A stretch of 64,000 bases of DNA, from assembly GCF_007970185.1 (NCBI RefSeq), contig NZ_CP042431.1:6555342-6619341 (forward strand), read 5' to 3'. Source of the stretch: Pseudobacter ginsenosidimutans. GTDB lineage: Bacteria; Bacteroidota; Bacteroidia; Chitinophagales; Chitinophagaceae. Below are positions 16,725 through 64,000 of the stretch, piece after piece; the stretch's first letter is position 1, and the number at the start of each line of letters is the position of its first letter. The notes beneath the pieces were generated by a model, which was not told the origin of the DNA, made no database searches, and saw nothing but the letters and a program-made list of their open reading frames with translations. The position numbers were made by a program, and so were the translations under genes.

Positions 16725-19529
16725 TTACTTTGGCAGTAAATAAAAATCCATAAAGGGTTTCTTTGTCAGGAATTCATTTGTTCCAGCTTTGATCCGGTCT
16801 TTACTCAACATGCCGATATATTTCTCAACGCTGTTCACTTCATTCAGATCATATCCATTCTGCAGGCTGGCAAATAGTACACTATGCCAGTAATCAGTAG
16901 TGCCCGACATCTTCGCGATACTGGCCCTGCTCTCCGCCACAAATTTACCCAGTTCATCATCAGTTGGCCCCTGCTGCGCCAATTGAGCCAGCACGGATCT
17001 CACTTCAGCCGTCAGCGCTTTCGCCCTTAACGGATCGCAGGTAAAAGAGATAACGAAACCATAGCGGGGAGAAGGATAATTCGATTTCTGCAAATTCACT
17101 GAAGGCGTATAAGTGGCGCTTTCTTTTGTACGCAAGGCTTCGGTTATACGGTATTGTAAGATGGTACGCAGGGCATTCAGCTGCACATTTTCCCAGGGCG
17201 TCCCTTTATAAGCACCAGGTATCACGATCTGTACAGTAGCTTTATTCTCCAGCTCCTGCTTCACCATGATGGTACGGCTCTGGTCAGCGAAATGTATGCC
17301 CATATCCACTATTGCTTCTTTCTTATTCAATGCAGGAAGACTACCAATGTATTGCTCCACCAATACTTTGATGGAATCAGGCTGATAACTGCCGGTGATG
17401 AGGAAAGTAAAATCAGCTGCATCGGCAAACCTTTCTTTGTAGATCTCCACTGCACGAGCAGGTTTCACTGCATCGAGCCTTTGAACGGTCATCGGTTGTT
17501 TGCGCCAGTGGCCGGCGGTCATGAAAGTATTTACACTGTCCATGAAAATATTCCCGGGCACCTGGTTCCTTTTCTCCAGTTCCAGCCTCGTATTGCGTAG
17601 CATGCCTGTAACAGCGCTTTCGTTGAGACCTGTTTTTGTGAAATAAAGATGGATCAGCTTCAGGCAGGTCTCGAAATCTTTCTTACTGCTGCCGGCGCTG
17701 AAACCTTCGGAATAATCAGAGATGAAAGGCTGGTATTGCACCATCTTTCCGGCAAGGAGTTGCGACAAAGCTTCGGGATCCAGTCCGGCCACACCGCCCT
17801 GCAAAGTAATGGGAACGGCCAGTGATGCAGCATCATAATCCTGTTGATTGTACAATGCAGTTCCACCAAAACTGAAAGCATTGATCAGGATCTTGTCTTC
17901 CTGGTTGCTGGTGGGTTTCAGGATCACCCTGGCGCCATTGCTGAGCGTCCACTCAGTAACGCCGATCTCATCAAGTTGCTTCGCTTCCACGATACTGCCT
18001 GGTTTTGCAGCAGGTGCAGGCAATCCGGAAGCAGCTTCAGGCTCCTTGTATTTTTCGATCTTACTGTCTTCTGTTGCCTCCATCCATTTTTTGATCTCCG
18101 CTTCGGCAGGCAATGCTTCTTTGCTGTCGGCCGGGGCAAGGATAATGATGTCCTGGTCGGGTGTGGTGAAAAATGTTTCGATCAGTTTATCTGCATCATC
18201 CAGCGTGATCAACCCCAGTTGTTCGCGGATCGATTTGTTGAGGAATTCCTCTGAAGGATAAGGCGTTTTTTGCATGAACGCTTGTGCATATTGGTTAGCA
18301 TAGGCTTCGGAACTGATCTTTTCCCGGTTATTGTAACGGTTATTCTGTGCTTCGCCCAGGGCCACTTTGGCGCGCTTGAGTTCTTCATCAGTAAATCCGT
18401 GTTTCTTTATTCGGTAGAGCTCAGTCATCAATGCCTTGTAGCCGCGCTCGATGCCACCGGGGAGGAAACTGATCTGAACAGTAGGGCCGCCAAGTCCTTC
18501 AGTAACCGGACCGATCCCGGCGCTCGCCTGCAGGAAGGGAGGATCGCTTTGCCGTTGCAGGTGAACGATCCGCCTGGCGAGCATATCGTTGAAAAGCTGG
18601 ATCGTCATGCCATTTCGTAGATCCTTATCCGTGAGCATTGGAGCAATCTTTTCTTTGCCATACCATTGCAGCGAAACGGTTTTGATCTCTTCATCACGCA
18701 CTATATTGAATGTTTTCTTACCGGTAAGTGCAACGGGATATTCAGGCAAGGCCGGTGCATCAGCAGGCTTCACGAGATCTCCGAACAATTGTTTGATCTG
18801 TGCCTCAACCACATCAAGATCAAATTCACCTACCACTACAATGGCCTGGAGATCCGGACGATACCAGTTGTGATAGAATTTGCGTAATAAATCAGGATTG
18901 AATGTCTTCAGCACTTCTTCGGTTCCGATCGGAAGGCGTTGCACATGCCGCGAATTATTGAGGAGGATAGGTAACGTTTTTTCGCTGATCCGCTCCCCTG
19001 CCCCTTTGCGCTGTCGTTTCTCTTCGAGGATCACGCCTCTTTCAGATTCGATGTCTTCGTTCACCATTTCAACACCTCCTGCCCAGTCTCGCAGGATCTG
19101 CATGCCACGGTTAAGCGAAGCTGTATCGTTCACGGGAATGTCCAGCTTATATACAGTTTGATCGAATGCCGTATAGGCATTGAGATCGGCGCCAAAGCGA
19201 ACGCCCATTTTCTGGAGGGCATCCACCAAACTGTTCTTCGGAAAGTTCTTTGTTCCCTTGAAAGCCATATGCTCCGTGAAATGCGCAAGGCCGCGCTGAT
19301 CATCTGTTTCCAGCAGTGAGCCCACTTTGTTCACCAGCATCAGGTAAGCCTGCTGGCGGGGCTCGGCATTCTTCCTGATATAATATGTGAGCCCGTTGGG
19401 CAATACGCCTGTTCGTACAGCAGTATCACTGGGCAACGGATTCACCTTTGTTTCCTTACAAGCCACGGCAATCCCGATGATCAGCAGGAAACAGGAAAAC
19501 TGTAAAATATTTTTCAATGGTAGTTTCAT
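16725..19529 (-). CDS. M16 (insulinase/pitrilysin) family zinc peptidase, lipoprotein
   Basis: Predicted periplasm-facing zinc protease. The 934-residue protein begins with a signal peptide and lipobox ending AVAC (C24). It then contains two M16 halves, as in family members of about 900 residues. The N-terminal half has the inverted zinc motif HFTEH (83-87) and a downstream Glu in ESERGVILEE (about 163); the C-terminal half lacks the motif, which is usual. I use the ATG at 19529; the longer frame begins with GTG at 19544. It is the last gene of an operon with the tandem MutS-like gene 15 bp upstream. Substrates are unknown; peptides handled by the linked ABC transporter are one guess. Confidence 0.85.
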   Translation of the reverse strand: MKLPLKNILQFSCFLLIIGIAVACKETKVNPLPSDTAVRTGVLPNGLTYYIRKNAEPRQQAYLMLVNKVGSLLETDDQRGLAHFTEHMAFKGTKNFPKNSLVDALQKMGVRFGADLNAYTAFDQTVYKLDIPVNDTASLNRGMQILRDWAGGVEMVNEDIESERGVILEEKRQRKGAGERISEKTLPILLNNSRHVQRLPIGTEEVLKTFNPDLLRKFYHNWYRPDLQAIVVVGEFDLDVVEAQIKQLFGDLVKPADAPALPEYPVALTGKKTFNIVRDEEIKTVSLQWYGKEKIAPMLTDKDLRNGMTIQLFNDMLARRIVHLQRQSDPPFLQASAGIGPVTEGLGGPTVQISFLPGGIERGYKALMTELYRIKKHGFTDEELKRAKVALGEAQNNRYNNREKISSEAYANQYAQAFMQKTPYPSEEFLNKSIREQLGLITLDDADKLIETFFTTPDQDIIILAPADSKEALPAEAEIKKWMEATEDSKIEKYKEPEAASGLPAPAAKPGSIVEAKQLDEIGVTEWTLSNGARVILKPTSNQEDKILINAFSFGGTALYNQQDYDAASLAVPITLQGGVAGLDPEALSQLLAGKMVQYQPFISDYSEGFSAGSSKKDFETCLKLIHLYFTKTGLNESAVTGMLRNTRLELEKRNQVPGNIFMDSVNTFMTAGHWRKQPMTVQRLDAVKPARAVEIYKERFADAADFTFLITGSYQPDSIKVLVEQYIGSLPALNKKEAIVDMGIHFADQSRTIMVKQELENKATVQIVIPGAYKGTPWENVQLNALRTILQYRITEALRTKESATYTPSVNLQKSNYPSPRYGFVISFTCDPLRAKALTAEVRSVLAQLAQQGPTDDELGKFVAESRASIAKMSGTTDYWHSVLFASLQNGYDLNEVNSVEKYIGMLSKDRIKAGTNEFLTKKPFMDFYLLPK

Positions 19530-19544
19530 AATCTTCAATATCAC

Positions 19545-22244
19545 TTATGGATGTGTGTTATATACTTCTTCGATCTCAGACAGCATATCTATTATGCCTT
19601 CCTGCCTGATGATAACCATACCATGACGGTCATTCGATATACCGTTGGTAAGCTCGTAGGTGTACACAGGCGAATTGCCCTGCATCACGGTTGGCATGAA
19701 TTTGAATTGTATGCCTGCTGTATGCAGGCCCAGCGCTGTTCCCACTTCCACAATATGTGTGGAGATGATGAAGATGCAACGGTTGAAATCATGGAATGCT
19801 TTCGAGAAAGCGAGTGTGGCATCGTAAGCATCTTTTACGTTCGTTCCCTTGAACAGCTCGTCGAACATGACGAACAATCTTTTTTGTGCCGATACCTGTT
19901 CTGCGATATGTTTCACACGCAGTACCTCTGCATAGAAATGACTGTAGCCCATATTAAGGTTATCAGCCACATTGATACTGGTATAGAGGCCTTCCATGGG
20001 ATGAAAATGCATGTTGCGGGCGGGAACGGGAAAGCCCATATGAGCGAGGTAAACGCAAACGCCGGTCGTTTTCATCAGGGTTGATTTACCGGCCATATTC
20101 GCTCCTGTGAGGAACATGAAATTGGATGACGCCCCGAATTCAATATCGTTCCCCTTTGCATTGGTAATGGCCGGGTGGAAACCACCTGTAATATTCAATT
20201 CATTGCCTGCTCCCTCCAGGGCCTTTGCAAAGGAAAGCCCCAATCGTTTGGCTGTATTGCCAACAGAAATATTTACATCGAGTTCATATAAAAGATGAAG
20301 CAGATTTGCAATCGATTTATTCATCTTGTTGAACAGCCAGATCTCATATCCGATCAGCTCCTTCCAGCCGATCTCTGCAGCGCTTTTGAAAGTCTGCGCC
20401 TGTTTCAGTTTCGGATCAGCAAGAAAAATGTTCGCTACATCGATGGCTGCTTTAATTTTTTCAGGCGCTTCTTTTACCCAGGCTGCATCCAGGAATACAC
20501 GTACTGCATTCAGCACCTGCAATGTTGCGAACAATCCTTCTGCTGCTTCTTCCATTTCTTTCTTCACCCCAAGCATGTTCAATGCCTGCCTTCTTGTTCC
20601 ACGCATGAACAGTTGAATACGGGTATCGAAAGGTCTGTCCTTCACATAATCCTCCATTCGCACAAACTGTGCAGGACTTACCGGGAACTGAAGTTGCTGA
20701 CTGCTGAAGAAGGAATAAATAGCTGCGCGTTCATTGATGGTTTGCGCATTTGTAAGCGGATTTGTGAAGAGCTGGTCCAGCTTACGTTCGCCGTCCCTGG
20801 TTTTGGTGGCATTGAATATACTGAAGATGGAATTCTGTTTGTATTTGCCAGAGATGTTCAGGTCTTCCATCGTTTGCTGATCGGTTTGAAATGCGCCCTG
20901 CCCTGTTGAAGTCTGAACAGCAGAAGATTCACGAAGCATATCCAGCATGCCTTCGTTCTGAATGATCAGCATACCATGACGATCGCCCGTCACTCCTTCT
21001 TCCAGTGTATAAGTATAACGAGGTACAGACCCCTCCATGTATGTAGGCATGTATACATACCTGATATTATCGCAGCGCTGCTTCAGTTCATCGGCCGCTT
21101 CGATGATATGGGTGGATACAACAAACAATGTTTGCTTTTGCATGGCAAATGCATGCGTGATGGCCACAGTGCCATCGCCTGCATCCTTCACATTGGTGCC
21201 CCTGAACAGCTCATCGAAGATCACGAAGAGATTATGCCCCTGCCTTACCTGCTCCACGATATTCTTCACGCGCAACACTTCAGCATAGAAATGACTATGC
21301 CCCATGTTGAGGTTATCGGCCAGGTTGATGGTGGTAAAGATGCCATCGCGCACGGAGAATTGCATGGATTTTGCCGGAACGGGGAATCCCATATGCGCGA
21401 GGTACATGCAGATGCCCATCGTTTTCATGAAGGTGGATTTGCCGGCCATATTGGCTCCGGTGAGGAATACCACCTGCTGTCCGGGCAATAGCTCAAAACT
21501 GTTGGGCACAGCCCGCTCCACCAGCGGATGCCAGGCTTTGTTCAGCATCAGTTCCGAATTGCCATCGGTGGCTACAGGGAAAGCCAGTTCCAGCTTCGTG
21601 GCAACATTGGCAACACAATGGTAAAGATCGATCGCATAACAGTAATGCACAACCTTCATGATGGTTTCCCGCAGCGTGAAACGATACAGTTTGTCCAGCA
21701 GCGCAGTATCTTCAAAGGACCTCTTCTTCAATGCGGCCAGTTGCAGCACCTGTTTAAATGCAGGGTCTTCCATACGGGCAAGCACATGCGCTGTTTCCTT
21801 TTCTATATCCTCGTTCCCTTTCAGCACATCGGAGTTCACGAAAGCATAGATGGCTGTAACGATATTCGAAACAGCATCCACACCATTCGCTACAAACTGA
21901 AACGCAGTATCGGACCCGATGAGGGAGGAGAATTTCCGTTTCAGGCTATTGTCTTCATGCGTCAAACGTGTACGTGCATCCGAATTCTCCAGGTAATGCC
22001 CGGCAGCATCGAACCACATTGACTGGAAAGGCAGCTCCGGTTTGCGTTGCTGGAAATGGCGGAAAATAGCGCTTCTGCGATTGATATCTTCCCTGTTAGA
22101 CAGGGGAGCGCGGAACATTTGTTCCAATAATTCCGCGCCCCCTGCCGTATGGGTCTGATTAAAGAACGCATAAATGGAAGGTTTTCCACTTTTGCTGAAT
22201 ATGCTGATGTCGTTCAGCGTTTGCTGGTCTGTAATGAAACTCAT
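19545..22244 (-). CDS. MutS-like protein with two complete tandem MutS ATPase units
   Basis: The 899-residue protein is two homologous units joined head to tail: residues 1-450 and 451-899. Each has a MutS lever/core-like helical region and a MutS ATPase domain. Unit 1 has Walker A GANMAGKST at 263-271 and Walker B FDE near 343-345. Unit 2 has Walker A at 714-722 and Walker B FDE near 794-796. Both keep the DNLNMGxSHFYAEVLRV block and the STHI switch, so both ATP sites look active. There is no mismatch-recognition domain, Smr domain or clamp. Since MutS proteins work as dimers, this is probably an intramolecular dimer. Its start codon overlaps the upstream stop (TAATG), indicating coupling to the permease gene. 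Role unknown. Confidence 0.88.
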   Translation of the reverse strand: MSFITDQQTLNDISIFSKSGKPSIYAFFNQTHTAGGAELLEQMFRAPLSNREDINRRSAIFRHFQQRKPELPFQSMWFDAAGHYLENSDARTRLTHEDNSLKRKFSSLIGSDTAFQFVANGVDAVSNIVTAIYAFVNSDVLKGNEDIEKETAHVLARMEDPAFKQVLQLAALKKRSFEDTALLDKLYRFTLRETIMKVVHYCYAIDLYHCVANVATKLELAFPVATDGNSELMLNKAWHPLVERAVPNSFELLPGQQVVFLTGANMAGKSTFMKTMGICMYLAHMGFPVPAKSMQFSVRDGIFTTINLADNLNMGHSHFYAEVLRVKNIVEQVRQGHNLFVIFDELFRGTNVKDAGDGTVAITHAFAMQKQTLFVVSTHIIEAADELKQRCDNIRYVYMPTYMEGSVPRYTYTLEEGVTGDRHGMLIIQNEGMLDMLRESSAVQTSTGQGAFQTDQQTMEDLNISGKYKQNSIFSIFNATKTRDGERKLDQLFTNPLTNAQTINERAAIYSFFSSQQLQFPVSPAQFVRMEDYVKDRPFDTRIQLFMRGTRRQALNMLGVKKEMEEAAEGLFATLQVLNAVRVFLDAAWVKEAPEKIKAAIDVANIFLADPKLKQAQTFKSAAEIGWKELIGYEIWLFNKMNKSIANLLHLLYELDVNISVGNTAKRLGLSFAKALEGAGNELNITGGFHPAITNAKGNDIEFGASSNFMFLTGANMAGKSTLMKTTGVCVYLAHMGFPVPARNMHFHPMEGLYTSINVADNLNMGYSHFYAEVLRVKHIAEQVSAQKRLFVMFDELFKGTNVKDAYDATLAFSKAFHDFNRCIFIISTHIVEVGTALGLHTAGIQFKFMPTVMQGNSPVYTYELTNGISNDRHGMVIIRQEGIIDMLSEIEEVYNTHP

Positions 22245-25596: not shown

Positions 25597-27126
25597 CTAT
25601 TGTGGTGATCCTCCCCTTAAGCTGATATCAGCAATGCGTCCGAGCCCGCTCAAACGGTGCAGCTCAACCGGTCCTCCACTCAGCAATGACTGGCTGGAGA
25701 TATCGTATAAGATCACAGTACCATCCGCAAGGCCCACGGCCAGTTGCTGACCATCCTCACTCTGCGTAAGCGCCGTGATGGATGCAGGAAGTGTATGGTA
25801 TTTTTTGGTAGCGCCGCCGATGCTCACATCGTAGTAATACAAACCTTTGTTATCGGCATCTCCGGAGAAGAACAGGAAGCTCCTTGTTTTGATCGCCACG
25901 AATTTTGTATTGGCATTCAGGTATTGCTTACCGGTGAATGTTTGCTTCATGCCGGGAGTATGGATGGTTTGGATGCCCATGAGGTTCATGAATGTGAAAG
26001 GTTGCAGGTATACCTCACCGGTAGCCTGCTCGCGCACAATGAACACAGGGTTGGAGGAAACTATAAGGTCATCCTTGAATGTACCGCCCCAGATATAGTC
26101 GTAACCGGTCAGCGGTAATGATGGATTGATATAGCCAGCCGGTACAGGTAAATAAACAGGAGGAGGCGGAAATGTATCGATCTTCAGCGTAGCTCCGAAA
26201 GTGATATTCTGTACCAGTTTCAGCGAAGCATAGAGCAGCCTGTTGTTCAGTTCATCATACATCACCGTATACATCGTATAGCCTGACTGCACATCCCAGA
26301 GATGTTTGATCTTCATTCCCTTGCTGACCTCCAGTGGAATGTTCAGCCAGGGAACAGTGAAGGCGATCGGGTTGGTCTGGAAGAGACGGGCATACAATTT
26401 TCCATCATCGTTCACCAGCAGGTCGGCAGTTTCATAGAAACCCGCATTCACGGGATTCAGTCCTGCGGGTCTGCCGCCCACGAAGGATTCATTTACCACC
26501 AGCCTCTTTTCGTAATTGAAACCAGAAAGCTCTACCGATCCCTGTCCACCCTGCTGAATAATGCCCACGCCCCTGCCTCCGTTCACGTAGTAATCCTTGA
26601 TGCGGAGCGGATGACTTCCCAGGCTTTCACCATTGTTCTTGTCTTTATACAGGGCCAGCTGATCACGATATCCTGTGGGTGTTTTGCGAATATGCGCAAT
26701 CTCAGATTCCCCGTCCTTTTCATACAGAACAACCCAACCGGTTTCATAGGGAGAGATCACGGTCATAGTAACAGGACCCGTTTCAAATCTCAGCCCTGTT
26801 TCCTTATCGATCATGTAATAATTGAGCATTACATATCCCGGTTTTGAGCCGAGGTAAACGAGATCAGCATCTTTTGATAGCAGCTTCCCATCCTGATACC
26901 ATTCATGATCATAATCATTAATGGTTTTGCCGGCCACTTCAAATTCCCTTTTGGGCACAATGTCAAGCGGCTCATCGATCACGGCTACCAGAGCACTGGT
27001 GATATCGAAAGAGAGCTTAACCGGATTGCCTTTTACGTAGTCGAAATTGCTCGTGTCTTTCACACAGGACAACTGCAGGAACAGACCTGTGATGAGGAGC
27101 AAACGAAAGATATTACTGGTTTTCAT
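25597..27126 (-). CDS. PKD-like family lipoprotein of SusCD locus 1
   Basis: Predicted outer-membrane lipoprotein of 509 residues with a lipobox ending LQLSC (C21). It resembles the Bacteroidota PKD-like family (PF16407): a first beta-sandwich-like region (about 25-145, with YDHEWYQDGKLLS and GYVMLNYYMIDKETG), then a long beta-rich region that could be a propeller and ends with DGTVILYDISSQ, a WD-like strand. The ATG at 27126 precedes the signal peptide; the longer frame is not credible. It follows the DUF4843 gene by 22 bp and is probably a surface partner in substrate binding. The ligand is unknown. Confidence 0.75.
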   Translation of the reverse strand: MKTSNIFRLLLITGLFLQLSCVKDTSNFDYVKGNPVKLSFDITSALVAVIDEPLDIVPKREFEVAGKTINDYDHEWYQDGKLLSKDADLVYLGSKPGYVMLNYYMIDKETGLRFETGPVTMTVISPYETGWVVLYEKDGESEIAHIRKTPTGYRDQLALYKDKNNGESLGSHPLRIKDYYVNGGRGVGIIQQGGQGSVELSGFNYEKRLVVNESFVGGRPAGLNPVNAGFYETADLLVNDDGKLYARLFQTNPIAFTVPWLNIPLEVSKGMKIKHLWDVQSGYTMYTVMYDELNNRLLYASLKLVQNITFGATLKIDTFPPPPVYLPVPAGYINPSLPLTGYDYIWGGTFKDDLIVSSNPVFIVREQATGEVYLQPFTFMNLMGIQTIHTPGMKQTFTGKQYLNANTKFVAIKTRSFLFFSGDADNKGLYYYDVSIGGATKKYHTLPASITALTQSEDGQQLAVGLADGTVILYDISSQSLLSGGPVELHRLSGLGRIADISLRGGSPQ

Positions 27127-27148
27127 TGTAGTCAGTTTGGTTGAATGA

Positions 27149-27862
27149 TTAGCCAAGCAATGGAACGGTACTGAGCATGTCTGCGCCATCTTCCATATAC
27201 ACCGGGGTACCATTTTGCTTTTGGTTGATCAGGTAATATTTGAACTGAAGGAAATAGATCAGCCGCTGGTTATTGTTGAGCGGTTCCAGATCGCCCACGC
27301 CTGTTACTTCCATGAATTTTCGGAATTTCTTTTCACTGTAGCGGCCCAGGTAATACAGATCCATATTACTGTCCCACCAGGTTGGCTTACTAACGCTGGC
27401 AGTCAACCGAATGATCTTATACGTGGCTTCCGTCTGGCCGGGCTCAATCTGACTACCTCCTTTGAGATGCAGTACCAGCCTAAGGTTGGAGGTTTCCAGC
27501 CCGGGTGTATTCTTTACAGTTATCCAGGCGGTATCACGGGTAACTCCTTTTCTGAATACCTGTGCTGCAGGCAGACTGTAATTGGCTGCTGTAGCAGTTC
27601 CTTCTGAAAGCAGGGCTTCCACGGTGTATTGCTGGTCTTCTGAAAATAACTGGCCTATAAGTTTAACAGGCATCCCGATGGTCACTTCATTTTTTCCCAG
27701 ATGATAGAAAAACGAAAAAGAGATGGAATCCTGGAAAGGGGTTACAAATTGCAGATACCTGCCGCTGTTGTAAACGCCTATTTCTTGTTTTTTGCAGGAT
27801 GCCAAAAACAAAATGGAAGCAACTGTTCCTGAAAATATGATGGTTGAGATTGTCTTTTTCAT
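27149..27862 (-). CDS. DUF4843 domain lipoprotein of SusCD locus 1
   Basis: Predicted lipoprotein of 237 residues; signal peptide with lipobox ending FLASC (C23). Beta-rich body with the DSISFSFFYHLGKNEVTIGMPVKLIG segment typical of DUF4843 proteins, which in Bacteroidota regularly follow susD and precede a PKD-like gene, exactly as here. The ATG at 27862 (MKKTIST) is 19 bp after the susD stop; the upstream extension would overlap susD without support. Function unknown, likely an accessory surface glycan- or peptide-binding protein. Confidence 0.75.
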   Translation of the reverse strand: MKKTISTIIFSGTVASILFLASCKKQEIGVYNSGRYLQFVTPFQDSISFSFFYHLGKNEVTIGMPVKLIGQLFSEDQQYTVEALLSEGTATAANYSLPAAQVFRKGVTRDTAWITVKNTPGLETSNLRLVLHLKGGSQIEPGQTEATYKIIRLTASVSKPTWWDSNMDLYYLGRYSEKKFRKFMEVTGVGDLEPLNNNQRLIYFLQFKYYLINQKQNGTPVYMEDGADMLSTVPLLG

Positions 27863-27881
27863 GCAGTCTTTTTTCCTGTTA

Positions 27882-29354
27882 CTAGAAAATTTGCTCTTGC
27901 TGAGGGATGGGCAATATGAAACGATCGTCCAGCACAATCACCTGCGAGCCACGCATCAGGTTCCGCTGCAGGCGTTTGTAGGCAAAGAAGGTTTGTCCTT
28001 CATTAATGAACTCACGGCGATATTCCGCCAGCAGTTCCTGGTAGAACGCTGTTTCATCTGACTGGGAGAAAGTGGTAAGCTTACCTCTTGCATTCCGCAC
28101 CTGGTTCAGCACGTTCAGTGCCTCATTGGTCTCACCGTCTTTGAACAGTGTTTCACTGTAGATATAATAAACCTCGCTCAGGCGAAGAACCGGCACAATG
28201 GTATTCTGCGCTTTCACATCATAATTTATGGCCCGGCTTTCCAGCCATTTATCAGAAACCTTTCCTTTCTGATTTTGATTGTCTGTCTGGAATTCACTGA
28301 TGAAGCCGGCACGGAAATCACGGTCTGTTGCAGGAAACCACTGATCAACATCTGTTGAAAGCCTGTAACTGTTCTGATAATTTGCAGAAAGATTGGCAAT
28401 AAGATCTGCATCATACGCAGCGAATAAAATATCATCGGCCAGTTTGCTGTACCTGTTGCCACTGGTGGTGGTAGCATTGAGCTCCGAAGTGAATTCCGAG
28501 AATTTCAACCGGCCATGCGGTCCGAAATTCTCATACACATATTTAGCGGACTGTTTTGCTTTCGCATAATTGCCTGCATAGAGATACACACGGGCCAGCA
28601 ATCCATGAATGGCAAGATAGTTGAGTCTGTGCATCCTGAAAGCGAAGAAAGCATTCGCCTGGGTAAATCCCACACTGCTCAGCTTGTTTTGTAAACCATT
28701 GGCCAATCCGGACCTGTTCACGATGGTATCATTTTCTGCCACCAGCGATTGTGCCTTTTCAAGATCAGCAGTGATATTGTCTATCACCTGGCTGGTTGCT
28801 ACGGGCGGGTTCAGTTTGGCAGGATAGGTATTCACATAGGGAATAAATTTTCCGTTGGGATCCTTTGCAGGTGCAGGAGCATAGAGCCTGAGCAATTCGA
28901 AATGCATCAGTGCGCGCATAGCCATAGCTTCACCAATGATGAGATTGCGTTCGGAACGTCCCTGTGCAAAGCTGCTTTCGGAAAGTGCTTCGATCTCCTT
29001 CAGGAGCTTGTTGCAGTTGGCGATATTATTGTATGCTTTTGTCCAGATCTCGTTTATGATGTCCTGGCTGAAAGGATTCGTTTTATCGAAATTATAGGCA
29101 AGGAATCGATCGTTCGACATATGCGCGCCATCATACTCCTGCGAGTAGGCAGTATTCAGGCCCCAGCTCAGGTTCTTACCAAAGAGCTCTTTACCGGCAG
29201 CCTGGATATATACACCATTCAGGGAATGGCGGAAGCCCTGGGCCTGGCTGAACAGCTCTTTATCCACGATCTGATCAGAAGGTTGTACATCCAGCCATTT
29301 CTTACATCCTGTAAGAGAAGAAATGATAACAAGTAGTAGGGTGATTTTTTTCAT
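27882..29354 (-). CDS. SusD/RagB nutrient-binding lipoprotein (locus 1)
   Basis: Outer-membrane lipoprotein that lids the SusC channel and binds its ligand. The 490 residues begin with a lipobox ending SLTGC (C17), then WLDVQPSDQIVDKELFSQAQGF, a typical SusD start. The TPR-like region (about 80-260) and the C-terminal LRLSEVYYIYSETLFKDGETNEALNVLNQVRNARG block are both diagnostic. It is 12 bp after susC. The ligand cannot be deduced because no glycosidase or peptidase gene is in the locus. Confidence 0.92.
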   Translation of the reverse strand: MKKITLLLVIISSLTGCKKWLDVQPSDQIVDKELFSQAQGFRHSLNGVYIQAAGKELFGKNLSWGLNTAYSQEYDGAHMSNDRFLAYNFDKTNPFSQDIINEIWTKAYNNIANCNKLLKEIEALSESSFAQGRSERNLIIGEAMAMRALMHFELLRLYAPAPAKDPNGKFIPYVNTYPAKLNPPVATSQVIDNITADLEKAQSLVAENDTIVNRSGLANGLQNKLSSVGFTQANAFFAFRMHRLNYLAIHGLLARVYLYAGNYAKAKQSAKYVYENFGPHGRLKFSEFTSELNATTTSGNRYSKLADDILFAAYDADLIANLSANYQNSYRLSTDVDQWFPATDRDFRAGFISEFQTDNQNQKGKVSDKWLESRAINYDVKAQNTIVPVLRLSEVYYIYSETLFKDGETNEALNVLNQVRNARGKLTTFSQSDETAFYQELLAEYRREFINEGQTFFAYKRLQRNLMRGSQVIVLDDRFILPIPQQEQIF

Positions 29355-29366
29355 GATCAGTAAGTT

Positions 29367-32300
29367 TTAAAGTCCTGCTCTGAGTGTCAATTCGAATTTG
29401 CGGTCAAAGGGAAAATCCAGGCCACGCTCCTGTTGTATGGAAGAAATGGTTGCCAGGTTATTGCCGGTAAGCTGGATCTTCAATCTCGACAATCCCATTT
29501 TGGCCACCTTTTGCTGAGGAATATCGTAAGCGAGGGTCACGGCGTCGATCCTTACGAAATTATTCTTCTGAATGAAACGTGATGTGGGTCTTGTGATGTA
29601 AAGCCTGTCTGCAATATCTTTCAGCGAAGTGAGTTCGCCGGGTTGCTGCCAGCGCTGGTCCAGCACCCTGCGGTCTGCATTGGTATTGTAGAGGTCCACA
29701 TTTTCCACTTTACTTACGAGTGTGTAATTGTAGTCAAGTCCACCGAACTGGTACATAAAGTTGGCGTAGAGTGAGAATCCTTTGTACACTGCATTGAAGG
29801 CAAAGCTTCCCTGCCCTTTCGGAGTTGCATCGCCTATCACCACCTGGTCGCCTGCAGTCCATACATACGTGATGGAACCATCAGGGCGCATATACACTTC
29901 CTTTCCATCAGCAGGGTTCACGCCCAGTGAACGCATACCATAAATGGCCGTTACGGAAGCACCTTCAACATATTTGGTATGGGCTGTTGTATATTTCTTT
30001 TTACGGGCAGGGTCTTCAGTAACTGCCAGCGCATCATTGAAGTCTTTGTACTCATCATTCACCAGCTCATTGTAACGTCTGAGTGAATTGGATAATTCAA
30101 GAAGTGTATTCTTGTTGGATGCGAAAGTGCCGAATACGCTGAAGTAAAAATCCTTTTTCCTGATGATATCGTAAGACAATCTCAATTCGATCCCGCGGTT
30201 CCTGATCTTGCCTACATTGTCCTTGTAAGTTGGGAAGCCGGAGGAAATGGGCATATCAACATCATTCACGAGGTCCTTCGTTACCTTATTGTACCAGTTG
30301 ACATTTACCATCATCTTGTTCTGGAGCAAGCTCATTTCAACTCCCAGATCAGTGGTATTGGTGATCTCCCAGGAGAGCAGCGGATTCTCCATTGCTCTTA
30401 TGAGTACACCTGTACCGGTGCTGTAAATAGACTGGTTAACGGTATAAGTTCCTTTGGCAGCGTAGGGAGCAAAATTCGTTTTACCCAGCTGTCCGAAAGA
30501 GCCGAACAATTTCACACGGTTGAAGACCTTGCTTTTGAAGAATTCATAGTTGTGCAGGTTGATGCCACTACCTACACTCCAGAAAGGAGCAAACCTTCTT
30601 TCGTCTCCGAAACTTGAATTACCATCCACCCTTCCTGCAAGGTCCAGCAGGTAGATATCCTTGTAAGTATAGTTCAATTGTGTGAACATACCTATCAATC
30701 TGTTGACGTTATCAACGTAGGTGGATTTGCGATCCATGAAAGCAGCATAGTTGGGAGAGTTCAATTCGCCGGAAGGAAAGCCGGCATAGAATTCAGATAC
30801 CTGGGAGCCTTTGTCTTCTTTTATATTCACACCTCCGGAAAGCATCATATTATGTCCTCCGAAATTATTCACGTAGCTCGCAAAGATATTGGTGTTGAAA
30901 GAGTAGGCGTCCCTTCTTCCGATGGTGAGTTTTCCTTCCCTGCCCTTGTCGTCAATGCCTGTTTGTGTGGCAGAAGCCGGATCGATGAATTTGTCGGACC
31001 TGGCAATGTTGCGTCCCAATGCGATCTCACCTCTCACTGTCAGTTTGCTCAACGGCGTCCAGGTGATGCCGGTATTATTGGTGATGGCCTGGTAGCTATT
31101 GGTGCTGAAATTTCTGGTCATGAGGGCTTCATACAAGGGATTGACGCGCGCCAGTTCGGAACCCATCCAGCGCCACCTTGTTGTTTTGTCCAATGGTTTT
31201 CCATTTGCATCGAAAGCCTCATCATAAGGGTTCTTCCTGGTATAATCCGAAAAACTACCATAAGGTGAGTCCTGGGCATCCACGATATCGTAAGTGAAAT
31301 CATTCTTTATCTGGAATTTCTTCAGCCGGTAATCGATCTGCAGGTTAGCGCTTTTACGTTCGCGGCCTGATCCTTTCATAACACCCTTCTCTGTATCATA
31401 ATTCAACCGGAGAGCGAACCTCAGCTGATCGAAGCCACCATCGAAACCCAGTGAATGTTTCTGGTTGAGCGCATTTTGAAGGGGCTGTGCAATCCAGTCC
31501 GTATTAACACCGCGTTTGATCTGGTTTCTCTTGGCCAGTAATTCCTGCGTAAGATTTGCGTCAGTGTATGAACCTTCGGGCTTATAATACCCCGCCAGTT
31601 CTTCTGCACGTATTTTCTCTTCGGCATTCATCAGGTTGTAATCACGCAGATCAGGTACACTGAGTGTGGAGGTATAATTGTAATCCACATGCAGTTTACC
31701 AGGCACCGGCGCTACTGTTTGTATCACCACCACGCCATTGGCTGCACGTGAACCATACACGGCTGTTGCAGCAGCATCCTTAAGAATGGTAACACTTGCA
31801 ATACGGTTGATATCGAAATCATATACACGTTCTACGGAGATCTCAAATCCATCCATGATGAAGATGGGAAGGTTGGGATTGTTGCTGAGCGCGGCTTCCG
31901 ATACATCCACCGGTTCCAGGGATTTCTGACCGATGCCGGAGCGGCCACGGATATAGAATTCCGGCATTGTATTGGGATCCGCTCCGCGGAGATTGTTCAC
32001 CTCCAAACGGAAGGAGGGATCAAATGCCTGAAGGGCGCTGATCACATTCCTGTTGCCCAGTTTCAGGATCTCATCCTTGGTTACACGGATGGAGTTGCCG
32101 GTAAAACTTTCTTTCCTGAGTTTAGTATAACCTGTTACTACTTCATCCATTCCTTTGGAAGAAAGTTTCAGGTTCACATGGAACACAGGCGCAAGGTATT
32201 TGATAGTGAGCGTGGTGGTTTCATAACCAACATAACTCACTTCAATCACGTCTCCGATCTCCACCTGGATCTCTGCGATACCATCGGTATTGGTGACTTT

Positions 32301-32846
32301 GGAGATCTTTTTGTTCCTCACCATTACAGAAGCCCTGGGCATGGGAATACCCAGCGTATCGATCACCCTGATCTTTACAGGGAATGGTATCGGTTCATCA
32401 TTACCGATAGTAATACTTTGAATAGGTTTAGGATTTAAGGGTACGGGTGCATCAGGTTTCTGGAACAGGAGTATGCTCCTGTTGTTGATCTCGTATCCTA
32501 TGGGTTGGGTTTTGAACAGTTCTTTCAGGAACTGCTCCAGGGGAACATTGCTGGCGTGAATGGTCACGGGGTGTGCAATGGTGAGTAAGGAACTGGGATA
32601 AAGGAAACTGTAGCCTGTTTGCTTTTTGCACTCGGCAAACACTTTTTCGATCGGCACATTGCTTCCTGTAAAACTAATGTTCTGGGAAAAGCTCTTGGCG
32701 CTTACGTTGAGGAAAGCAGCAGTCAGTAAGAGTACAGTCAGTTTCATACCTAATAGTATTGGCTTTAATTTCCGCCCGGCCGGCAGCAGTTCACGGCGCG
32801 TAGCGGATTTCCCCCTTCTATGGGAGAAGGAAACCACATTTTGCAT
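29367..32846 (-). CDS. SusC/RagA TonB-dependent transporter with STN signalling domain (locus 1)
   Basis: Outer-membrane active importer, 1159 residues. Order: N-terminal extension and signal peptide ending SAKSFSQ, STN domain (about 55-125, VPIEKVFAECKKQTGYSF), carboxypeptidase-like domain (about 155-240), plug with ILKDAAATAVYGSRAANGVVVI, and the large beta-barrel to the C-terminus. The STN domain means it can signal to the FecR and sigma pair encoded upstream. I chose ATG 32846 (MQNVVSFS): it puts the start 75 nt after the leader hairpin, matching locus 2 (70 nt). A longer frame to 32936 would run through the hairpin. Confidence 0.93.
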   Translation of the reverse strand: MQNVVSFSHRRGKSATRRELLPAGRKLKPILLGMKLTVLLLTAAFLNVSAKSFSQNISFTGSNVPIEKVFAECKKQTGYSFLYPSSLLTIAHPVTIHASNVPLEQFLKELFKTQPIGYEINNRSILLFQKPDAPVPLNPKPIQSITIGNDEPIPFPVKIRVIDTLGIPMPRASVMVRNKKISKVTNTDGIAEIQVEIGDVIEVSYVGYETTTLTIKYLAPVFHVNLKLSSKGMDEVVTGYTKLRKESFTGNSIRVTKDEILKLGNRNVISALQAFDPSFRLEVNNLRGADPNTMPEFYIRGRSGIGQKSLEPVDVSEAALSNNPNLPIFIMDGFEISVERVYDFDINRIASVTILKDAAATAVYGSRAANGVVVIQTVAPVPGKLHVDYNYTSTLSVPDLRDYNLMNAEEKIRAEELAGYYKPEGSYTDANLTQELLAKRNQIKRGVNTDWIAQPLQNALNQKHSLGFDGGFDQLRFALRLNYDTEKGVMKGSGRERKSANLQIDYRLKKFQIKNDFTYDIVDAQDSPYGSFSDYTRKNPYDEAFDANGKPLDKTTRWRWMGSELARVNPLYEALMTRNFSTNSYQAITNNTGITWTPLSKLTVRGEIALGRNIARSDKFIDPASATQTGIDDKGREGKLTIGRRDAYSFNTNIFASYVNNFGGHNMMLSGGVNIKEDKGSQVSEFYAGFPSGELNSPNYAAFMDRKSTYVDNVNRLIGMFTQLNYTYKDIYLLDLAGRVDGNSSFGDERRFAPFWSVGSGINLHNYEFFKSKVFNRVKLFGSFGQLGKTNFAPYAAKGTYTVNQSIYSTGTGVLIRAMENPLLSWEITNTTDLGVEMSLLQNKMMVNVNWYNKVTKDLVNDVDMPISSGFPTYKDNVGKIRNRGIELRLSYDIIRKKDFYFSVFGTFASNKNTLLELSNSLRRYNELVNDEYKDFNDALAVTEDPARKKKYTTAHTKYVEGASVTAIYGMRSLGVNPADGKEVYMRPDGSITYVWTAGDQVVIGDATPKGQGSFAFNAVYKGFSLYANFMYQFGGLDYNYTLVSKVENVDLYNTNADRRVLDQRWQQPGELTSLKDIADRLYITRPTSRFIQKNNFVRIDAVTLAYDIPQQKVAKMGLSRLKIQLTGNNLATISSIQQERGLDFPFDRKFELTLRAGL

Positions 32847-32921
32847 AACTTTGGTACGTTTGGGTGAAGTAATAAGCAGTCTTTCGCGAGACCTGTTTTT
32901 AATTAATAAACTCGAACTCTG

Positions 32922-32946
32922 CCGGGAGTGACGCAAACACTTCCGG
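32922..32946 (-). promoter_or_regulatory. Conserved hairpin in the fecR-susC gap (locus 1)
   Basis: CCGGGAGTG (32922-32930) and CACTTCCGG (32938-32946) form a 9-bp stem with one G:T pair and a 7-nt loop containing GCAA. It lies 33 bp after the fecR stop and 75 nt before the susC ATG. A near copy lies in locus 2. On the coding strand it is preceded, not followed, by a homopolymer run, so it is not an ordinary terminator of fecR. Confidence 0.6.
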
Positions 32947-32979: not shown

Positions 32980-34134
32980 TTACGGCAGAATTGTAATGGT
33001 CCTGCCTTCTCTTTCGAACTTTATATTCAAGCGGGAAAGATACTTGAGTACATCTGATAACGGGATCTGTCTGTCGAGATCTCCATTCAGTTTTACTGTG
33101 GGTATAGCACCGCGGTATTCTACCTTGATATCGTACCATCTTTCCAGTTGTCTCATCACTGTTTCAATGTCCGCTTTCTCGAAACTGAAGAAGCCATTCT
33201 TCCAGGCCAGGATATTCGCCAGCTCAGGACTGAATACTCCGGTGATCTCGCCATTGTTTGATGAAACAGCCTGCTGGCCCGGTTTCAATATTACATTACC
33301 GCTGTTGGACTCTAACGGCGACACACGTACGCTTCCGTTGACCAGTGTGGTCCTTACTACCCTTTCATCATCATAAGCATTGATATTGAAACTGGTGCCC
33401 AGTACCTGTACGCTTGTATTGCCGGCCTTTACCATAAATGGCGACTGCTGGTTCTGCGCCACTTCAAAATACACTTCACCCGAAACTTTAACTGTCCGAT
33501 CCTTACTGCTGAACTTCGAGGGGAACTCAACGGATGAAGCAGCATTCAACCATAGTTTCGATCCATCAGGAAGTACTGCCTGGAACTGTCCTCCACGTGG
33601 TGTGGAGAGTGTGATCATCTTATTTGTTTCCGCGATCTTTTCTCCATCATTATAGACGATGGCATTGCCTGCGGTAACGATGCCTGATTTCTGATCACTG
33701 AGATTGATCACGGAATCACCGATAGTAAGAATGGCCTGGTTCTTTCCGGGCAGGATCTCCGTATTCTCCACAACTGCCACAGGTTGTGTGTCCGTTTTTG
33801 CAACAAGAAAATACACACCTGAACCAATTGCCAGGAACAATACAGCTGCAGCTGCATAATGCCAGGGTTGACGGAATAAGCGCACCACTTTCTTTTTATC
33901 CGCAGGCGTCCATTTACCGGAGGCCACCATTTTGTTCCAGGCTGCATTTTCATCAAACTGCTGCAACTCATCCAGCTTTGATTCCAGTAATTCCTTGTTT
34001 TGAAAACTGTTGTACAGCTCCCTGTTCTCTGAGGATGCTTCCAGCCATTGATTCAATATCTCCTCCTCAGCGGCGTTGAGGGGCTGCTGTAATTGCTTTA
34101 TCAGTAATTCTTCTATCGATGGTTGATGCGCCAT
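32980..34134 (-). CDS. FecR family anti-sigma factor (locus 1)
   Basis: Inner-membrane regulator that holds the ECF sigma factor until SusC signals through its STN domain. The 384 residues have an N-terminal cytoplasmic sigma-binding region with LLIKQLQQPLNAAEEEILNQWL, one TM helix (about 91-112, AAAAVLFLAIGSGVYFLVA) and the periplasmic FecR domain (TPRGGQFQAVLPDGSKLWLNAASS, about 173-196). A C-terminal STN-like segment follows (SFEKADIETVMRQLERWYDIKVEY), as in Bacteroidota FecR proteins. It lies 86 bp downstream of the sigma gene. Confidence 0.93.
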   Translation of the reverse strand: MAHQPSIEELLIKQLQQPLNAAEEEILNQWLEASSENRELYNSFQNKELLESKLDELQQFDENAAWNKMVASGKWTPADKKKVVRLFRQPWHYAAAAVLFLAIGSGVYFLVAKTDTQPVAVVENTEILPGKNQAILTIGDSVINLSDQKSGIVTAGNAIVYNDGEKIAETNKMITLSTPRGGQFQAVLPDGSKLWLNAASSVEFPSKFSSKDRTVKVSGEVYFEVAQNQQSPFMVKAGNTSVQVLGTSFNINAYDDERVVRTTLVNGSVRVSPLESNSGNVILKPGQQAVSSNNGEITGVFSPELANILAWKNGFFSFEKADIETVMRQLERWYDIKVEYRGAIPTVKLNGDLDRQIPLSDVLKYLSRLNIKFEREGRTITILP

Positions 34135-34220: not shown

Positions 34221-34775
34221 TTATAATAAGAGCATCAATCCGCGCTTAAGGAGCAGCGCTTTCAATAGTTTGATGGCTTTCAGTTTTTGATTCAGCACAT
34301 TCTTGGTGCTGGTGTTGAGCAGCTCTGCAGCTTCGCTGGTAGTCTTCCCCTTGAAGTAGATCAGCTCAAAAACCTGAGCGCATTGTTCAGGTAAGGTTTG
34401 TAATTGCTGGTATATTTCGTTGATCAGTTCGGCATCGATGCGATGGCGGTCATGATCTTCTTCATTAATATTGGAGAGATAACCGATCTCCTGGTGCGAA
34501 CGATTGTGCCTTTCGGTTTCCTGCAGGTGATTGATGCAGGCATTGCGGACCGTCAGGTAAAGCCAGGATTTGATATGAGAGGGATTATCGAACTGCCGGC
34601 GGCGGTCCCACAATTTGAGCAGGGACTCTGTGGTAATATCTTCCGCCTGTTCCGGGTCACCGATCAGCTTGTTGGCGAAATAAGCGAGCCTTTTGAAGTA
34701 AGTTTTGTACACCTGTTCAAAAGCCGCGTTCTCGCCCTGTATGAAGGCTTCTATGATTTCCTTTTCCAATAACAT
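34221..34775 (-). CDS. ECF sigma-70 factor (locus 1)
   Basis: RNA polymerase sigma factor that should drive the SusCD locus. The 184-residue protein has sigma region 2 (about 22-85, with AEDITTESLLKLWDRR) and region 4 (about 125-175, LPEQCAQVFELIYFKGKTTSEAAELL). The arrangement sigma-fecR-susC-susD is the FecI/FecR type common in Bacteroidota. It is the first gene of the locus and is divergent from the agmatinase-like gene across a 168-bp gap. No convincing minus-strand promoter was identified there. Confidence 0.92.
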   Translation of the reverse strand: MLLEKEIIEAFIQGENAAFEQVYKTYFKRLAYFANKLIGDPEQAEDITTESLLKLWDRRRQFDNPSHIKSWLYLTVRNACINHLQETERHNRSHQEIGYLSNINEEDHDRHRIDAELINEIYQQLQTLPEQCAQVFELIYFKGKTTSEAAELLNTSTKNVLNQKLKAIKLLKALLLKRGLMLLL

Positions 34776-63060: not shown

Positions 63061-64000
63061 ATGCAATCTCCCGCAGCATACTACCAGCAAAGGATCCAGG
63101 AATTACAGGAACACCTGAAAAAAGTACAGCAACAACTGATCGGCGTATCTGTGGCAAGGCTGCTCAGTTTTCTCTGCGTACTGATTGCAGGTTATTACTG
63201 GATCAAAAGCGATAGCTCAACATTACTACCGGGCATTACCGTTATATCATTGATAATATTCATCATTTTTGTGAAACGGGCCTTCAGACTGAATGATGAT
63301 AAGGCGCTTACCAACAAATTACTTTTCGTCAACACCAACGAAGACGGCATCCTCCGGCGCCAGCAAAGCAAATTCCCCGATGGCCGGGAAGCCGCAGCAC
63401 AGTCGGGTTACGCGGCAGACCTGGATATATTTGGCCCCAATTCATTATTCCACCTGCTGAACCGTACCACCACCACACATGGCACTACTGCTTTACAGCA
63501 GATATTGCAGCAACCGGAACTGGACCCTGTTGTGATCCGCAACAACCAGGAAGCCATCAAACAATTGTCCACACAAACAGAAACGCGTCAGCTCCTCATC
63601 GCACATGGATTATTGCACGGCGAGAAGGAAGGAAATCTGCACGAGGTGCAACGCTGGCTGCAAATGCCTACCCTGCTCTACCAACTGAAATGGGTACGCG
63701 CAATTCGTTTCATCATGCCCGCTATCAGCCTGGCAGGATTGATCGCTTTCCTGGCAACGGATACCTATCAATGGCTGCTGCCGGGCATCATCGTCAGCTG
63801 GCTGATCACGGGCAGCTTTACCAAAAGAATCCTTCACCAGCATAACCTGCTCAGCAAGAAACAAACCATCCTGGAACAATATGGCAGCATCCTGCAATTG
63901 TTCAGCGAAATAGAGACAGGCGATTCCTCCGTACTGAAAAAAGAAAAAGCGACAGCACAGGATGCGAGTAAAGCCATCAAGCAATTGTCGAATCTGGCCG
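63061..64000 (+). CDS. Membrane-bound MutS-family protein, N-terminal part (truncated by window edge)
   Basis: First 313 residues of a MutS-related protein. Two TM segments (about 30-75) precede a MutS core-like region (about 120-190, with FGPNSLFHLLNRTTTTHG). Two further TM segments follow (about 215-260), then a helical part that continues off the window. The NSLFxxxNxTxTxxG block matches the same position in both units of the tandem MutS-like protein at 19545-22244. The ATPase domain would lie beyond 64000 and was not seen. It begins 18 bp after lysC. Function unknown. Confidence 0.78.
   Translation, partial: MQSPAAYYQQRIQELQEHLKKVQQQLIGVSVARLLSFLCVLIAGYYWIKSDSSTLLPGITVISLIIFIIFVKRAFRLNDDKALTNKLLFVNTNEDGILRRQQSKFPDGREAAAQSGYAADLDIFGPNSLFHLLNRTTTTHGTTALQQILQQPELDPVVIRNNQEAIKQLSTQTETRQLLIAHGLLHGEKEGNLHEVQRWLQMPTLLYQLKWVRAIRFIMPAISLAGLIAFLATDTYQWLLPGIIVSWLITGSFTKRILHQHNLLSKKQTILEQYGSILQLFSEIETGDSSVLKKEKATAQDASKAIKQLSNLA

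Follow-up and report, generated by a model that had tools for sequence, protein, structure and literature searches.

MutS-type ATPases are textbook DNA-repair proteins, and the eukaryotic MSH members of the family are heterodimers of paralogues. The SusC/SusD receptor loci and the Gld-type transporters are likewise established systems. MutS-like proteins encoded in operons of adenosylcobalamin-dependent enzymes have also been proposed as helpers of metalloprotein assembly, according to a review (PMC9164220). Here, we analysed a 64,000-nucleotide stretch of the soil-type bacterium Pseudobacter ginsenosidimutans, hereafter the window (contig NZ_CP042431.1, positions 6,555,342 to 6,619,341), in which one gene encodes two MutS-like units, A and B, in a single chain and directly follows the genes of a SusCD-ABC (ATP-binding cassette) transport operon. 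The association of a MutS pair with such an operon, its copy number and the repeated fusion of the pair were not described in the literature searched, a search that did not cover the ABC-ATPase classification cited in PMC9164220; nor does the operon appear in passages of PMC5458099 and PMC4010731, both of which mention MutS and SusD. We propose, at about an even chance, that the protein is a single-chain A/B heterodimer belonging to the transport operon, where it would work as a cytosolic, ATP-driven clamp or switch on the ABC/GldFG machine (GldFG being a fused GldF/GldG-like permease) or on its cargo.

Two MutS-like units in one chain

The first-pass annotation of the window read the protein as a head-to-tail fusion of two full MutS-like units with intact ATPase sites, and both claims hold. 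The reading frame of 899 codons has no internal stop, and its halves, residues 1-450 and 451-899, align with 39% identity over 444 columns (E 4e-114). Each half carries the Walker A motif GANMAGKST and the Walker B motif FDEL, together with the DQQT, DRHGM-x-II and DNLNMGxSHFYAEVLRV blocks already pointed out in that annotation (Table 1). The identity rises to 54% in residues 241-450 and falls to 26% in residues 1-240, and the homology extends beyond the ATPase core: residues 1-240 of the two halves gave a local score of 241, versus a maximum of 60 in 1000 shuffles.

A Pfam search at E 0.1 matched MutS_III and MutS_V in each half. MutS domain V (PF00488) reached 201.5 bits in two stretches, versus a cut-off of 30.2, which places the chain in the MutS ATPase superfamily; MutS_III passed its cut-off for the whole chain and for the second half, and the first half alone fell below it (31.3 versus 34.1 bits). 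At the same threshold MutS_I, MutS_II, MutS_IV and Smr gave no match in the fused chain, as expected from the earlier statement that it has no mismatch-recognition, clamp or Smr domain. The protein thus shares with MutS1 the lever-type helices, the MutS_V ATPase and all catalytic motifs, but differs from it in having no recognised domain I, II or IV, in scoring under the NCBIfam cut-offs (281.5 versus 480 bits for TIGR01070, 225 versus 641.7 bits for PRK05399), and in its transport-operon setting, many copies and occasional fusion. Classical mismatch repair had been judged unlikely for this protein, and we likewise hold it unlikely; because the mismatch, connector and clamp domains are absent, the target is probably not mismatched DNA. 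When a profile of the halves was compared with Taq MutS, positions 8-57 corresponded to 255-305 and positions 179-384 to 500-700. Residues 58-178 (121 positions) therefore stand for Taq MutS 306-499 (194 positions), and this part, 73 positions shorter, fits a missing clamp, which we take to lie in this region of Taq MutS.

Other described systems also resemble the protein in part. MutS2 (TIGR01069; core structure 7vuf) has the same lever and ATPase core, but the fused protein scores 162.7 bits against a cut-off of 400, has no Smr match and is made of paired paralogues. Like the eukaryotic MSH proteins, A and B are paralogues that probably form a heterodimer. KamC (NF052383) is a MutS-like ATPase named for a role other than DNA repair, and the fused protein reaches 218 bits against its cut-off of 300. 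Finally, single MutS-like proteins of 437 residues (L065, in the host) and 446 residues (L121, in another family) match A and B in unit size; they stand as single genes among other genes, outside SusCD-ABC operons, and share about 28 and 37% identity with the window protein.

In structure prediction, the AlphaFold2 model of the whole chain, built on a six-row alignment in which the fused chains of L099, L100 and L101 and two stretches of L102 accompany the window protein, was poor, with a pLDDT of 54 and a pTM of 0.39. A single half modelled with ten rows reached a pLDDT of 71 and a pTM of 0.72, with parts of the ATPase and residues 393-450 under 50. This model matched the MutS/MSH and MutS2 cores in the PDB, with a best query-length TM of 0.61 among the matches listed.

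We then considered whether the gene is a genuine fusion. Five further genomes of the genus were searched, and three of them hold full-length fused orthologues, with 87, 81 and 80% identity: Pseudoflavitalea rhizosphaerae, a Chitinophagaceae metagenome-assembled genome and Pseudoflavitalea sp. G-6-1-2 (the contigs of L099, L100 and L101 are also those of G002, G042 and G041 and were counted once). In all three, with genes labelled by BLAST to those of the window, SusC, SusD, DUF4843-like, PKD_2-like, ABC and GldFG genes precede the fused gene and an M16 peptidase gene follows it. Compared with these orthologues, the fused gene has a dN/dS of 0.085-0.116 as a whole and of less than 0.14 in each of four parts. 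The orthologues and the whole-gene dN/dS exclude the joining of two genes by frameshift or misassembly, which the first pass had left to be checked, and the fused chain is a genuine gene.

MutS pairs and their transport operon

The window gene is one of many. The host genome is a single contig of 7,797,595 bases. Its 117 MutS_V matches resolve into 56 same-strand head-to-tail pairs and 5 singles; the spacing within pairs, from domain start to domain start, is 1278-1540 bases. All 56 pair loci were fetched for analysis: 51 have separate genes, two are fused (the window and L039), and three, L015, L036 and L040, have one MutS subunit gene split into two overlapping or adjacent open reading frames (ORFs). 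These three were excluded from the A/B tree, the distance comparison, the residue conservation and the fusion tree. In the tree of the 51 pairs and the two fused proteins, the first genes separate from the second genes. Clade A unites the 51 first genes with both N-terminal halves (support 0.999), and the remainder of the tree consists of the B genes and both C-terminal halves. With predicted start codons, A and B lie a median of 9 bases apart and overlap in 18 of the 51 pairs. Four residues, the Walker A lysine, the Walker B aspartate, the glutamate next to it and the switch histidine, do not vary in any of the 53 A and 53 B units. A group of closely similar MutS-A genes (L034, L044, L046, L048, L049, L057, L058 and L062) also appears in the tree, for which either gene conversion or a recent duplication may account.

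Fusion has occurred more than once. Besides the window group, fused chains are found in L039 of the host, in L122 (G040, another species of the genus) and in L112 (another genus). A tree built from 74 A+B sequences places the window group with the unfused L055 (support 0.996), L122 with the unfused L009 and L038 (0.993), and L112 among ten unfused loci (0.994). L039 stands next to the L122 group with a weak support of 0.361, and by BLAST it comes closest to the unfused L026; L039 and L122 could therefore share one fusion. Fusion accordingly took place at least three, probably four, times, always with A before B and with differing linkers. Fusing repeatedly in a fixed order is classically taken to mark partners that work 1:1, and the recurrent A-B fusions argue for an obligate heterodimer. 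The earlier proposal that one chain encodes the dimer is thus favoured indirectly: the halves fall into subunit clades, the subunits are separate neighbouring genes in 51/56 loci, and at least three fusions took place. Its structural part, an intramolecular ATPase dimer, is putative, the whole-chain model being too poor to judge it by.

The genes around the window gene are those of a SusC/SusD locus with sigma and FecR regulators (Table 1). The start codon of the MutS gene shares one base with the last base of the stop codon of the permease, the overlap with a membrane transporter gene noted at the outset. This had been called an unusual place for such an ATPase; across the 56 A-B pairs, however, a transporter neighbour is the rule. 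Taking as one operon the genes on the same strand with gaps below 400 bases, we found ABC and GldFG genes upstream of 55 of the 56 pairs, SusC and SusD upstream of 54, FecR upstream of at least 41 and sigma upstream of at least 31, the last two counts being lower bounds since the fetched loci are truncated. GldFG is the immediate neighbour of the pair in 54/56 loci. In L027, SusC and SusD lie beyond a short opposite-strand ORF. The exception, L012, has A-B at the front, followed by sigma, FecR, SusC, SusD, DUF4843, PKD, ABC and GldFG, with SusC and SusD broken into several ORFs; the same pair-first order with whole genes is found in another genus (L128), and the rearranged operon keeps the link between MutS and ABC/GldFG in two genera (L125, L128).

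Table 1. Features of the window; positions count from its first nucleotide
Feature	Position	Strand	Basis or remark
Fused MutS-A/MutS-B protein, 899 aa	19545..22244	minus	ORF and Pfam; fused orthologues; halves in clades A and B
Unit A, residues 1-450: lever-type helical part and MutS_V ATPase	20895..22244	minus	Pfam; predicted model, PDB matches
Unit B, residues 451-899: lever-type helical part and MutS_V ATPase	19548..20894	minus	Pfam MutS_III and MutS_V; B side of tree
Unit junction, about residues 438-455; short linker varying between fused lineages	20880..20933	minus	Comparison of fused chains
Walker A of unit A, GANMAGKST, residues 263-271	21432..21458	minus	Motif; Lys invariant in 53/53 A
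Walker B of unit A, FDEL, residues 343-346	21207..21218	minus	Motif
Walker A of unit B, GANMAGKST, residues 714-722	20079..20105	minus	Motif; Lys invariant in 53/53 B
Walker B of unit B, FDEL, residues 794-797	19854..19865	minus	Motif
M16 (insulinase-type) peptidase, directly downstream of fused gene	16725..19544	minus	Also in three orthologous loci
GldF/GldG-like fused ABC-2 permease with ABC_transp_aux domain, 768 aa	22244..24550	minus	Stop overlaps MutS start
ABC transporter ATPase, GldA-like, 310 aa	24568..25500	minus	
PKD_2-family protein, likely lipoprotein	25597..27213	minus	Pfam; true start probably downstream of listed one
DUF4843 protein, likely lipoprotein	27149..27937	minus	Pfam; true start probably downstream of listed one
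SusD-like outer-membrane lipoprotein	27882..29354	minus	
SusC-like TonB-dependent outer-membrane receptor	29367..32936	minus	
FecR anti-sigma regulator	32980..34134	minus	
ECF (extracytoplasmic function) sigma factor	34221..34775	minus	

Conversely, pair operons hold 83 of the 86 GldFG genes of the host (81 by the operon rule, one by inspection and one in the L012 operon). The other three have no pair: L126 and L127 are whole sigma-FecR-SusC-SusD-ABC-GldFG operons without MutS, and L124 has SusC, SusD and GldFG. As a control, we took the best 56 of 309 SusC candidates, all above the family cut-off, and none of the 55 SusC genes of pair operons was among them. Ordinary SusC loci without the pair are therefore plentiful in this genome, and SusC alone does not bring the pair. 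With RagA/RagB-like SusC/SusD loci the window operon shares the receptor pair, sigma/FecR, DUF4843, PKD_2 and M16 genes, and differs by its extra ABC/GldFG and MutS-A/B modules. The gliding transporter GldA/GldF/GldG gives the best NCBIfam match of the ABC ATPase and the permease, with GldG matching the second part of the permease, but all scores are below the cut-offs (269.1 versus 402.6, 68.2 versus 288.5 and 20.7 versus 389.85 bits), and in the window operon the GldF- and GldG-like parts are fused and tied to SusC/SusD.

We next compared the distances between loci gene by gene, keeping 53 A, 53 B, 52 ABC, 51 GldFG, 47 SusC and 50 SusD sequences of the 56 loci after short or cut genes had been dropped. 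Agreement (Mantel r) was 0.94 for A-B, 0.92 for SusC-SusD and 0.87 for ABC-GldFG; A and B agreed with ABC at 0.83, with GldFG at 0.72 and least with SusC, at 0.48-0.53. The median identity between paralogues was 0.59 for A, 0.61 for B, 0.65 for ABC and 0.40 for GldFG, and 0.24 and 0.25 for SusC and SusD. The operon thus reads as a conserved inner engine beneath a variable outer receptor.

The pair and GldFG also occur together in other genomes. Among 147 genomes of the host family, taken as one draw for both searches, the pair (E 1e-80) was present in 15, spread over 10 of 100 genera, and GldFG (E 1e-60) in 16, including all 15 with the pair (Fisher 1.4e-19, by genus 6e-13, with relatedness within genera and above uncorrected). 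The family searches scored about 6-7 candidates per genome and the phylum and class searches two, so that they show presence and not number. In the phylum draw, 16/395 genomes matched at E 1e-40; the strong matches (E <1e-100) were the host, G035 and G138, and the other 13 were single genes about 30-40% identical. In the class draw of 395 genomes, matches at E 1e-80 came from the host, from G138 (another family, with the whole operon, L120) and from G837 (the single A-like gene of L121), and GldFG was present in 7/395. Seven further GldFG loci were seen: L130-L134 are SusC-SusD-ABC-GldFG operons without MutS, L135 has the pair, and L136 has two GldFG genes and, within the stretch, no pair or recognised SusC/SusD. 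Since such MutS-less operons exist, the pair looks like an add-on to the SusCD-ABC operon. Within the genus, MutS matches at E 1e-10 in six genomes numbered 106, 53, 39, 22, 11 and 8, counts in which some pairs are counted once and other MutS proteins may be included.

The function of the pair

How could a MutS-type dimer serve a transporter? In our proposal, A and B would pair 1:1 into a heterodimer whose two composite ATP sites resemble those of MutS dimers, and fusing them would lock this ratio. ATP cycling would then shift the lever helices. The fused protein has no strongly hydrophobic stretch (best 19-residue mean 1.48), which suggests a cytosolic location, and from the shared operon we infer a direct action on the inner-membrane ABC/GldFG complex or its cargo, the divergent SusC/SusD pair determining the ligand. 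A bolder version, to which we give somewhat less than an even chance, is that SusCD-ABC-MutS forms a distinct envelope machine. In such a machine, a MutS-type clamp heterodimer freed from repair would gate or power an ABC/GldFG transporter that a variable TonB receptor supplies, and more than 50 parallel versions in one bacterium would combine different outer receptors with one conserved inner engine. Several points weigh against a role at the transporter. Contact between the MutS pair and the transporter is deduced from the genes, and the whole-chain model is poor. MutS-less operons exist in the host (L126, L127) and elsewhere (L130-L134), and the transporter therefore does not always need the pair. 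Moreover, duplication of whole operons, with no physical contact between the products, could give the same co-occurrence and matching distances.

The strongest alternative, which we nevertheless regard as unlikely, is that A/B acts on DNA, as a clampless MutS2-like heterodimer on branched or paired DNA that controls recombination or gene conversion among the receptor operons or receives imported nucleic acid. The fold, which matches the MutS/MSH and MutS2 cores, would suit this role, and the 58 or 59 paralogous operons of the host genome, with some A genes up to 98.6% identical, would offer substrates for recombination. However, the pair tracks the ABC/GldFG operon and not SusC in general (0/56 in the SusC control), domains I, II and IV are not found, and the charge of the lever is near neutral on average (A -1.4, B +3.7), although this last point is weak evidence. 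The recurring unlabelled neighbours, of which representatives and not all members were scanned with Pfam, proved to be lipoproteins, sigma and AraC-type regulators, S41 peptidases, a thioredoxin-like protein and a protein sorted by the type IX secretion system; no nuclease or recombinase was among those scanned. Less probable still is an ATP-dependent factor that assembles or reactivates an enzyme or a metal centre, comparable to KamC, to which NCBIfam gives the name lysine 5,6-aminomutase reactivase ATPase. Among the NCBIfam families KamC ranks third for the chain, and the metalloprotein-assembly proposal for MutS-like proteins in PMC9164220 points the same way; yet the score lies under the KamC cut-off, no cobalamin or radical enzyme was among the scanned neighbours, and no aminomutase gene stood beside the pairs among labelled or scanned neighbours, many neighbours being outside the scan. 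The family name and the fact that duplication of an operon takes its contents along could also make the pair a repair-type passenger, carried by chance and with no role in the operon. This is very improbable, since the permease is present in each of the 15 genomes that carry the pair, the link is kept at all 56 pairs and through the pair-first rearrangement in two genera, and purifying selection acts on all four parts of the fused gene. As for an assembly or frameshift artefact, nothing speaks for it beyond the unfused state of most paralogues, and it is refuted by the same gene being fused in three other genomes and by other A-B pairs fused elsewhere.

The 56 paired MutS-like genes of this one genome, tied to TonB/ABC transport operons, point to a large-scale use of a MutS-type ATPase outside repair, and the A/B system could reveal the function of GldF/G-type permeases. 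The natural single-chain heterodimer of the window would be a convenient object for structural work and biochemistry. Built-in controls are at hand in the separate gene pairs and MutS-less operons of the same genome, and L126, L127 and L130-L134 form a natural control set of operons without MutS.

Relatives of the pair and variable genes of the operon

Between SusD and the ABC ATPase the operons carry variable proteins: a 262-residue lipoprotein in 27 loci, a 320-residue lipoprotein in 13, and DUF4843 and PKD_2-type proteins in other loci. Four members of the 320-residue group gave no Pfam match at E 1; in the 262-residue group, one member matched DUF4397 weakly, below the cut-off (20.7 versus 30.6 bits), and another was unmatched. 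By BLAST label, L010, L018, L036, L044, L046, L048 and L059 have a second sigma-type gene between the lipoprotein and the ABC ATPase, and Pfam confirmed that of L044. Peptidases follow the pair in some loci, M16 in the window operon and L055 and S41 types in L015 and L009, which is a weak hint at peptides as ligands of the operon. In a PADLOC scan, the ABC ATPase of the operon matched mad3 of a defence set at 105 bits; it also matched 193 NCBIfam families at E 0.1, ABC ATPases being widely alike. The MutS protein gave weak P-loop matches only in that scan (best 21.4 bits), and a search of viral contigs for relatives with the ten-row half alignment returned 26 pattern stretches and none that was confirmed.

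The nearest relatives sampled outside A+B are the single MutS-like proteins of 437-446 residues, followed by a form of 594 residues, MutS2 and MutS1. A tree of the ATPase part recovered A as a clade (0.924) and did not resolve B; its MutS1 row is a 759-residue part from an incomplete locus. In the host, a MutS-like remnant of 170 residues without a partner (L066:3787-4299) lies close to the L056 pair, and the single gene of 437 residues (L065:7663-8976) stands outside any SusCD-ABC operon. The protein of 594 residues begins at position 63061, reaches the right end of the window and continues to G000:C1:6620186 (L067:6403-8187); it has hydrophobic stretches near residues 26-44 and 53-71, as if membrane-anchored. 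Among the matches listed for 40 genomes of the family, ORFs of about 440-460 residues with a MutS_V match occur in most genomes, and ORFs of 596-645 residues with such a match in many.

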